Source of the DNA: Siminovitchia fordii DSM 16014 = CIP 108821
GTDB taxonomy: Bacteria > Bacillota > Bacilli > Bacillales > Bacillaceae_C
Reading direction: 5' to 3'
DNA length: 64,000 bases
Assembly: GCF_000374565.1 (NCBI RefSeq)
Contig: NZ_KB894685.1
Location: 658,221-722,220 of the forward strand
Positions 11,565 to 61,310 of this stretch are shown piece after piece; the stretch's first letter is position 1, and each line of letters opens with the position of its first letter. Both the position numbers and the translations under genes were made by a program. The notes under the pieces are model-generated. The model had not been told where the DNA came from and did not search any database. It saw nothing but the letters and a program-made list of their open reading frames with translations.

Positions 11565-11594
11565 TGTATATTTTCATCTTTAAATAACATACTA
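11565..11594 (+). promoter_or_regulatory. Predicted SigG promoter of the SASP gene
   Basis: TGTATA (11565-11570), a 17-bp spacer and CATACTA (11588-11594) fit forespore SigG promoters, the class known to transcribe SASP genes. Transcription would begin near 11601, giving a leader of about 108 nt that includes the tRNA-like fold. Confidence 0.75.
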
Positions 11595-11616
11595 AAAACA
11601 TAAATGATACAAACAG

Positions 11617-11678
11617 TGGGTTACACCTAAAGATGGTCACATGCATGTGAGTCGGTGCAAATCCGACTAACCCAGCCA
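11617..11678 (+). ncRNA. tRNA-like structure in the SASP mRNA leader
   Basis: Seen directly: a perfect 7-bp acceptor-like stem (11617-11623 with 11668-11674), a perfect 5-bp T-arm-like stem (11651-11655 with 11663-11667) closing a 7-nt loop TGCAAAT, then a single G and CCA (11676-11678). The loop keeps T54, C56, A58 and the G53-C61 closing pair of real T-arms; only position 55 (G for T) differs. Between the arms there is a 5-bp hairpin TCACA/TGTGA with a 4-nt loop where the anticodon arm would be, and a weak ACC/GGT pairing in place of the D-arm. It has no 7-nt anticodon loop, so it cannot decode. At 62 nt it is shorter than any standard tRNA. Confidence 0.6.
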
Positions 11679-11708
11679 ATCTTATTACTACAATAAGGAG
11701 ATGACAAA

Positions 11709-11912
11709 ATGGCTAACAACAATTCAAACCAAATTTTAGTAGCTGGTGCCGAGCAGGCAATCGACCAAATGAAGCTTGAAATTGCACAGGAGTTTGGCGT
11801 GAATCTTGGTGCAGACACCACATCCCGTGCAAACGGATCTGTCGGTGGAGAAATTACCAAACGCCTGGTTTCAATGGCACAACAACAGCTTGGCGGATTC
11901 TCCCAACAATAA
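11709..11912 (+). CDS. sspB: Alpha/beta-type small acid-soluble spore protein
   Basis: The 67-residue protein is a textbook alpha/beta SASP, nearly identical to B. subtilis SspB in length and core. It shows the [10 protein letters not shown] segment that includes the GPR protease cleavage site, the [23 protein letters not shown]-binding core and a Gln-rich C-terminus. In the forespore it coats DNA, forcing an A-like form and protecting it from UV and heat, and is degraded for amino acids in germination. AAGGAG lies eight bases before the ATG. It is monocistronic, with a SigG promoter and a strong terminator. Its neighbourhood with yheD/yheE agrees with sspB rather than sspA. Confidence 0.96.
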
Positions 11913-11930
11913 CTAAATATAAACATGGCA

Positions 11931-11962
11931 AAAGGCCCCCGGATTTTCGGGGGCCTTTCAAT
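11931..11962. terminator. Terminator of the SASP gene
   Basis: An 11-bp G+C-rich stem (11931-11941 with 11948-11958) with A/T flanks lies between convergent sspB and fumC, and could stop both. Confidence 0.9.
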
Positions 11963-23957: not shown

Positions 23958-24064
23958 GCAAAAACAGCAAATTTAAATAAACGTCATGCAGCTTTTCCAA
24001 AAATTTTAGCAAAGCTCAAAATAAACATGCCTTTCCCTAAGAAAGCATGAAAATTGACGCCTTT

Positions 24065-24202
24065 TTCCTTCTCCCATCCAGACTTTCACTGTCGGCTTTG
24101 GAGTTTCACCAAATCCACCGACTCATTACTGAGCCGGGTCACGGACTAAGAGACATTTGTCTCATCACCGCCGGTCGGGATTTTCACCCTGCCCCGAAGG
24201 AA
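24065..24202 (-). promoter_or_regulatory. FMN riboswitch (RFN element)
   Basis: Read on the minus strand, the highly conserved RFN blocks appear in order: TTCGGGGCAGGGTGAAA, ATCCCGACCGGCGGTGATGA, the variable hairpin, AGTCCGTGACCCG, GGTGGATTTGGTGAAACTC, and AAGCCGACAGTGAAAGTC, closed by a CCTTC/GAAGG P1 stem. It senses flavin mononucleotide and, with the terminator at 23935-23957, would attenuate transcription of ribDE-ribBA-ribH when FMN is plentiful. Confidence 0.97.
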
Positions 24203-24223
24203 AATGTATTCGAATGTATTCCT

Positions 24224-24691: not shown

Positions 24692-25116
24692 TTATTTATT
24701 AAACAACTTTTTTCTAAATAGATTTTCTGTAATTACGTTTGAAACGAAGAAAGTTAATGAACCAACGACGCTGAGAATAATAAAAGCCAAGATGTTGCTC
24801 ATATCACTTGTAGTTAAAGAACGGCCCTGGGTTAAATAAAGCAAAGCACTAACCAATATACCATATACTAACCCAAGAATTAAAAGCGAGAACAATCGCC
24901 GTTTAGTTGTATTTAAAAAAGATATTTTCAAAACAAGTTCTCCAATAACCACCCCTACAAAAGCCAGTAATACAATAATCGGAATATAAATAACTAAAAA
25001 AAATTAAAGTACTCATTAAAACTGTAATCATTGACCTGAGAACCTATAAAAATGGCTAGTACATTTAACAAAAAGAAAAAAAATAAGGTAAGAATATAAG
25101 ATATTAAAAATCTCAT
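24692..25116 (-). pseudogene. Frameshifted small multi-pass membrane protein
   Basis: Two overlapping minus-strand frames together encode one plausible protein of about 140 residues with four membrane helices. The 5' part runs from the ATG at 25116 (MRFLISYILTLFFFFLLN) to a stop just after a run of eight A (plus strand, 24996-25003). The 3' part, in another frame, continues with IPIIVLLAFVGVVIGELVL and ends at 24692. Adding one base to the run joins them seamlessly. The good GGAGGTG site near 25140 precedes an ATG whose frame ends after six codons exactly at the 25116 ATG, suggesting a second shift or coupling. Family not recognised. Confidence 0.6.
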
Positions 25117-60533: not shown

Positions 60534-61310
60534 TTAACGTCCCTTGAAATCTGGCTTTCTTTTTTCAATAAATGCTTTCATGCCCTCTTTTTGATCTTCC
60601 GAAGAAAATAACAGGTAAAAATTCTTTCTCTCAAAAAACATTCCCTCCTGCAGCGGATAATCCACCGCTTTGTTGACAGCCTCTTTAATCAGGCGGACTG
60701 CAAGCGGGGGCTTTTCAGCCAACTCCTTTGCATATGCGAGAGCTTCTTCTATCAGGTTTTCTTTCGGATATAACTTGTTGACAATCCCTAATTCATGGGC
60801 TTCTTCCGCAGGGTGCATGTCTCCGCCCCAAATCCATTCAAGTGCTTTTGTCTTTCCGATCAACTTGGTCAACCTTTGGGTTCCACCGGCTCCAGGCATA
60901 ACAGCAAGATTGATTTCCGGAAAAGCGAATTTAGTATCTTCTGCTGCAAACAATAGATCACAAACAAGCGCCAGCTCAAATCCACCACCAAGACAAAAAC
61001 CGTGTACTGCCCCAATTACCGGTTTTTTTACAAGGCTTAATCGATCCCAGTCGGCAAACTGGTTCAACAGCTCCATGGATATAGAATCATCTTCGGACAT
61101 TTCATCAATATCTGCTCCTGCCGCAAAAGCTCTTCCCTTTCCGCCGAGAAATATTACACGAATGTCATCATTGCGGTCATATTCTTCAAAGACTTCGAGA
61201 ATTTCATGTACCATGGTCCGGTTTAATGCATTCAAAACATCCGGCCTGTTCAGCCAAACAATACCGACTCGGCCATCGACCTCCGTCTGAATAAACCGGT
61301 AATCACTCAT
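60534..61310 (-). CDS. paaF: Enoyl-CoA hydratase, PaaF-like
   Basis: This 258-residue crotonase has both catalytic glutamates: CLGGGFELALVCD and FPEINLAVMPGAGGTQRL. It can thus hydrate enoyl-CoA, the PaaF-like step of the lower phenylacetate pathway; other substrates are possible. Its start overlaps the EthD-family gene by eight bases (ATGAGTGA), so translation is coupled. It carries FAAGADIDEM, as expected of the CoA-binding site. Confidence 0.85.
   Translation of the reverse strand: MSDYRFIQTEVDGRVGIVWLNRPDVLNALNRTMVHEILEVFEEYDRNDDIRVIFLGGKGRAFAAGADIDEMSEDDSISMELLNQFADWDRLSLVKKPVIGAVHGFCLGGGFELALVCDLLFAAEDTKFAFPEINLAVMPGAGGTQRLTKLIGKTKALEWIWGGDMHPAEEAHELGIVNKLYPKENLIEEALAYAKELAEKPPLAVRLIKEAVNKAVDYPLQEGMFFERKNFYLLFSSEDQKEGMKAFIEKRKPDFKGR

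Follow-up and report, generated by a model that had tools for sequence, protein, structure and literature searches.

We analysed a 64,000-nt stretch of DNA from Siminovitchia fordii (hereafter, the window), in which an alpha/beta-type SASP gene at the sspB locus is preceded by a promoter, a tRNA-like element and a Shine-Dalgarno (SD) sequence and is followed by a terminator-like hairpin. SASPs are spore DNA-protecting proteins, and sspB-type SASP genes are textbook sporulation genes. The features of the locus are listed here with the evidence for each.

11566-11594, + strand: SigG-type promoter, with GTATA at 11566-11570, a 17-nt spacer and CATACTA at 11588-11594 (sequence)
11617-11678, + strand: whole tRNA-like element, comprising acceptor, D-like hairpin, variable hairpin, T-arm, discriminator and CCA (sequence, fold, model, covariation)
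11617-11623, + strand: acceptor-type stem, 5' strand TGGGTTA (pairs with 11668-11674)
11625-11637, + strand: D-like hairpin ACC/GGT, at most 3 bp in the window (fold)
11637-11650, + strand: variable hairpin TCACA-TGCA-TGTGA with the 4-nt loop TGCA, replacing the anticodon arm (sequence, fold, covariation)
11651-11667, + strand: T-arm, with GTCGG at 11651-11655, loop TGCAAAT at 11656-11662 and CCGAC at 11663-11667 (sequence, covariation)
11668-11674, + strand: acceptor-type stem, 3' strand TAACCCA (sequence, covariation)
11675-11678, + strand: discriminator G at 11675 and encoded CCA at 11676-11678 (sequence)
11695-11700, + strand: Shine-Dalgarno sequence AAGGAG (sequence)
11709-11912, + strand: alpha/beta-type SASP gene (sspB locus), 67 aa, ATG at 11709 (ORF; Pfam PF00269, E 1.2e-21)
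11931-11958, + strand: terminator-like hairpin 3' of the SASP gene

The GTATA and CATACTA boxes ahead of the element are SigG-like by comparison with the SigG consensus, and transcription is expected to start at about 11601, leaving about 15 nt between the start and the element in the window genome. Reading of the sequence showed that all seven pairs of the acceptor are Watson-Crick, and that the 7-nt T-loop retains T54, C56, A57, A58 and a pyrimidine at position 60, while position 55 is G. The coordinates and parts given in a preliminary description of this DNA (acceptor, T-arm, discriminator G, CCA and the 4-nt-loop hairpin) were confirmed by this reading. Its statement that the D-arm is nearly absent holds for the window genome but fails for many relatives, in which a D-like hairpin is clear.

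Minimum-energy folding of the element gave the same domains at -19.4 kcal/mol (z -2.23), with 7 of 200 shuffled sequences folding equally well, a comparison that would lend modest support if taken by itself. For a pattern scan, we specified a 7-bp acceptor, a 5-bp T-stem, the loop TNYRANY and a terminal RCCA, with G-U pairs permitted. The element was the sole match on the + strand of the window, both with G-U pairs and with Watson-Crick pairs only, and 60 simulated 64-kb strands yielded no match. On the - strand, one G-U-containing match at 61214-61299, located within the coding ORF 60534-61310, is a chance occurrence. The element was called neither by ARAGORN nor by Rfam at gathering scores, and the tRNA model of Rfam (RF00005) gave no match there even at E<=10. 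Elsewhere in the window, an FMN riboswitch lies at 24062-24205 (- strand, 121.6 bits), and the element model described below has a weak match at 24827-24879 (+ strand, 14.2 bits, E 0.16) that is probably due to chance.

The model used for the comparative work, R2, was built from 36 relatives (alignment A1). It scored 61.9 bits at the window element, and its next three matches in the window genome, at 36.7, 34.1 and 21.6 bits, were tRNA-Gln genes. From model searches of the window genome and of the whole order, we fetched 130 loci representing 121 distinct sequences at 129 places, L143 and L245 being the same one; among the fetched matches, at least 129 genomes carry the element. The order-wide search returned matches at E<=0.01 in 338 of 397 genomes, which is no count of elements because the model also matches tRNA-Gln genes. 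Matches of 75-76 nt in this search were set aside as tRNAs, save those among 11 tRNA loci that were checked, all of which proved to be tRNA-Gln without a SASP gene nearby. An omitted match of this length could be an element, because ARAGORN calls the 77-nt element L385 a tRNA-Gln.

The link to SASP genes was no part of the search model, yet each of the 130 fetched loci, found with this same model, has an alpha/beta SASP gene in the same orientation as the element, 82-175 nt from the element start. Two further 77-nt matches, L386 and L387, also adjoin an alpha/beta SASP gene. The distance from the CCA to the SD sequence was 10-23 nt in 110 of the 121 distinct elements and 67-94 nt in 10, in most of which a second element sits between. 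The spacing to sspB is thus conserved, and loss of the element was seen in more distant lineages. A -10 sequence of the CATNNTA type was found 3-67 nt upstream of 84 of the 121 distinct elements.

For covariation, we assembled 96 diverse members, namely 85 cluster representatives of the 130 loci and 11 other loci. Their alignment (A3) was made with R2, and pair counts hence lean towards the R2 structure; read in this way, 97.0% of the cells of the acceptor helix and 97.3% of those of the T-helix were paired. Compensatory changes in the stems were abundant, with two-sided changes at 6 of 7 acceptor pairs, 3 of 5 T-stem pairs and 4 of 4 variable-arm pairs, and the covariation score was 0.341, whereas shuffles gave 0.142 (none of the 500 reached 0.341) and slid partners 0.070 at most. 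Support for the D-like helix was weak in the A3 alignment, with 68.9% of its cells paired and a two-sided change at one of its two pairs. Loop sequences varied among relatives while the structure stayed. The T-loop fits TNYRANY in 95 of the 96 members, RCCA comes after the acceptor in 90, and the T-stem lies 7 nt from the acceptor end in 93. Pair 1-72 is U1-A72 in 88 members, A-U in 4 and C-G in 1, and the discriminator is A in 84, compared with G in the tRNA-Gln of the window genome. At N-1 any base preference was weak (A 38, T 29, C 24, G 5).

Since pairs change on both sides while the T-loop, the RCCA and the 7-nt ruler are conserved, the fold is under selection, as is the CCA, even though the latter is internal to the transcript. 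We consider it almost certain, with a probability of about 0.97 on the comparative evidence, that the element is a cis-acting tRNA-like RNA in the sspB mRNA leader, selected for its fold. The core claim of the preliminary description, that a SASP leader contains a CCA-ended tRNA-like structure, is in this way strongly supported by covariation, spacing and the SASP partner. Its two stated grounds for refutation both failed.

The elbow of tRNA, formed between D-loop and T-loop, can be recognised across members from an association of bases. GG occurs in the D-loop of 12 of 16 members with U55 but in 1 of 80 with G55 (Fisher 3.6e-11, uncorrected for descent), as expected if G18-G19 dock on U55-C56. 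The window element belongs to the G55 type and has no D-loop GG. An anticodon arm with a 7-nt loop is absent; the corresponding loop in the window has 4 nt, and a 7-nt second loop was present in only 2 of the 86 members that have two hairpins.

To place the element among tRNAs, we used a comparison set of 109 tRNA genes covering 20 isotypes, with 10 Gln genes among them, taken from 10 fetched loci; these loci were chosen via a model match to tRNA-Gln, yet contain 99 other tRNAs. The best-scoring tRNA was tRNA-Gln for 113 of the 121 distinct elements, and for 82 of the 121 when acceptor and tail were left out. Likewise, the tRNA genes matched by the element model in the checked loci were tRNA-Gln only (3/3 and 8/8). 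The element has the UGGG..CCCA acceptor, the T-arm and the CCA in common with tRNA-Gln(UUG) of Bacillales, from which it differs in lacking a 7-nt anticodon loop in the usual place, in its shortened D-arm, in its location within an mRNA leader behind a SigG-type promoter and, in the window, in drawing no ARAGORN call. It folds like a glutamine tRNA, with the ability to decode lost. The comparison shows the element to be, as far as sequence tells, derived from or modelled on tRNA-Gln(UUG), and the simplest history would be that a tRNA-Gln gene was captured at the sspB locus. A divergent member, L175, scored 29.1 bits with Rfam RF00005, whose cut-off is 29, and ARAGORN calls L383 601-676 (- strand) tRNA-Arg(tcg) and L385 602-677 (+ strand) tRNA-Gln(ttg), both with an alpha/beta SASP gene downstream. 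Genome annotations may accordingly list leader elements of the sspB type as tRNA genes.

Many relatives of Bacillus keep the element. A class-level sample gave matches at E<=1e-5 in 24 of 398 genomes, and the two matches outside the order were tRNA-Gln genes. Within the genus of genome G243, 42 of 44 genomes matched at E<=1e-4; all 42 matches were inspected and each adjoins an alpha/beta SASP gene (that of G169 is L244), and the other two genomes hold weaker copies of 31.9 and 30.5 bits, so that the element is kept in 44 of 44. Two loci of this genus that carry the element, L360 and L363, encode an SspB that is presumably identical to the B. subtilis protein. The element is linked to a single locus: of 47 loci bearing it, 42 have one or more neighbour genes in common with the window, compared with 7 of 37 SASP loci counted element-free. 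None of the four other SASP-family loci of the window genome has it, and the leader of a second SASP gene of this genome (G000:C25, L247/L333), 95% identical over the aligned part, is without it. Nor was it present in any of the six phage (SPBc2, SPO1L4) and plasmid (four) SASP genes fetched. Among 24 SASP loci from seven genomes, picked chiefly because these genomes had shown no strong element, one has the element, and 17 of the 30 SASP loci nearest SspB have a match at E<=1e-3. Certain more distant lineages retain the SASP locus without the element, which was lost or eroded there.

Two types of element can be distinguished by the CCA. Tandem elements occur at nine loci of one genus (L141, L143, L146, L148, L149, L150, L152, L163 and L189) and at L220, with the CCA type first and a CCA-less type second; these second copies mostly have UUC in the T-loop and GG in the D-loop. 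The CCA-less type stands without a partner element in L048, L050 and L052. An AAAA tail takes the place of the CCA in L183, L239 and L243, which belong to the CCA-type set, and also in L287, and the CCA is missing as well in three named Bacillus/Neobacillus loci. A divergent element at L346 1730-1791 (- strand, 25.4 bits) has the acceptor GGGGTTA/TAACCCC and ACCA but has lost the T-loop. In the SASP leader of L258 (also L297 and L302), which gave no model match, a GGGCT/AGCCC helix closes a hairpin that is followed by ACCA, possibly a minimal relative of the element.

The preliminary description proposed that the leader could be cut by RNase P, be protected at its end or sequester a factor, consequences that we, too, can only infer from the structure, and its interpretation as a whole is partly supported. 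RNase P uses the acceptor, the T-arm and RCCA but not the anticodon, and CCA is a known anti-determinant for RNase Z. On this basis we tentatively propose, at somewhat less than even odds, that RNase P cutting of the sspB leader is the mechanism in which the element serves. RNase P would read the acceptor/T-arm stack and RCCA, and a cut at 11616/11617 would remove the 5' end of about 15 nt. The CCA would hold off RNase Z and so keep the tRNA-like domain joined to the message. The cut mRNA would then start with a blunt tRNA-shaped cap, a poor entry point for 5' exonucleases and other RNA-degrading enzymes, and this cap would help the sspB mRNA to last long and be translated efficiently in the forespore. 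What is selected under this proposal would be the 12 bp of stacked acceptor and T-stem, the tRNA-type elbow and R-CCA, whereas the D-arm and the anticodon arm would be free to vary because they are unread. It counts for the proposal that the element retains the parts used by RNase P, with a stacked acceptor/T-stem of about 12 bp (93/96) and a 3' RCCA (90/96), and that the part lost is the anticodon. In the abstract of PMC12710915, cleavage of a non-tRNA substrate by the RNase P RNA of bacteria is reported to depend on RCCA. On the other hand, the CCA is lost in some members (those with AAAA tails, the three Bacillus/Neobacillus loci and the tandem second copies), the SASP locus lacks the element in some lineages, the preference at N-1 is weak, and plain use by RNase P leaves the retention of U1-A72 unexplained. 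Older primer extension, moreover, reportedly mapped the in vivo 5' ends of sspB to SigG start sites, which would argue against efficient cutting. A fuller scenario, in which a tRNA-Gln gene captured in an ancestor of the Bacillales became a 5' cap, tRNA maturation enzymes came to form the 5' end of an mRNA, and the tandem arrangement is a processing switch, strikes us as doubtful. At the tandem loci, the CCA-less and more tRNA-like second copy would add a possible RNase Z cut point, and the pair could therefore act as a switch that sets the lifetime of the spore message.

The preference for tRNA-Gln and the retention of U1-A72, a GatCAB identity pair, would fit a tRNA-reading protein (GatCAB, a synthetase, EF-Tu or a T-loop enzyme) that binds the element, reports the state of translation or of glutamine and tunes sspB translation. 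We regard this as unlikely: pair 1-72 is A-U or C-G in five members, the discriminator is mostly A and not the G of the window genome's tRNA-Gln, synthetases need the anticodon that is absent here, charging could not occur without a 3' cut because the CCA is internal, and G55, present in 80 of the 96 members, rules out a pseudouridine-55 site. Other 5' stem-loops slow mRNA decay in Bacillus, and the tRNA-shaped domain might remain uncut and slow decay simply through its stable fold close to the 5' end. Conservation of structure over variable loops and the short stretch between expected start and element in the window genome are consistent with such a passive clamp; a simple hairpin would suffice for it, however, leaving RCCA, T-loop and elbow pairing unexplained, and we find it fairly improbable. 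That a separate tRNA-like small RNA is released, with the downstream mRNA as its by-product, seems to us more improbable again. The tRNA ends are complete including CCA, and CCA-less members could be RNase Z substrates, but the CCA of most members should block this enzyme, and the fixed distance to the SD sequence together with the constant SASP partner points to a role in cis.

Operation of the element as a switch by a ligand or RNA, masking or freeing the ribosome site, for example as a shrunken relative of a T-loop riboswitch, is very improbable. The T-loop UGCAAAU does resemble loop L4 of the cobalamin riboswitches; searches at E<=10 of 10 loci and the window element gave no match to these or any other riboswitch, and kinship with the cobalamin class was rejected. 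In 110 leaders, the total pairing of the SD sequence with regions of the element itself averaged about 0.05, forcing the acceptor left SD freedom unchanged (0.445 to 0.448), and no terminator lies between element and gene. The SD sequence is free only to about 0.45 on average, its partners being the flanks and the coding sequence; because it is unpaired with the element in these leaders, switching through masking was rejected as an explanation of the element. Finally, loss or erosion in some lineages might suggest chance or a decaying tRNA relic. We give this reading next to no weight; it is refuted by the covariation, with two-sided pair changes far above controls, and the element is kept in every genome of the G243 genus.

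Several known systems invite comparison. Bacillus cereus tRNA-Other is an odd tRNA-like RNA of Bacillus, for which we know of no link to SASP genes. The mascRNA/MALAT1 element, thought of as an RNase P substrate, is like the leader element a small cloverleaf in a longer transcript, but it is eukaryotic, lies at a 3' end and is released, whereas the sspB element would stay as the 5' end of its mRNA. The E. coli thrS leader is likewise a case of tRNA mimicry in a bacterial mRNA leader; it mimics an anticodon arm for synthetase binding, while the sspB element keeps the acceptor side and loses the anticodon side. tmRNA resembles the sspB leader in combining an upper tRNA half with mRNA in one molecule, and the abstract of PMC3985003 describes processing of its 5' end by RNase P. 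Unlike tmRNA, the sspB element has no SsrA parts and is a cis element of one gene. In scans of the window element and the relatives' loci, no Rfam family described the element. A search of the open-access journal literature found no paper on it, and passages of PMC4634765 and PMC4342826 make no mention of such an element.

tRNA-like structures are known as a kind; the form described here, retained with its CCA in the leader of a developmental mRNA in bacteria, is to our knowledge new. Its significance lies in a tRNA shape heading one bacterial mRNA and in a CCA that, though internal, persists in 90 of the 96 members. If our reading is true, tRNA-processing enzymes or tRNA-reading proteins would be used to control a developmental message.
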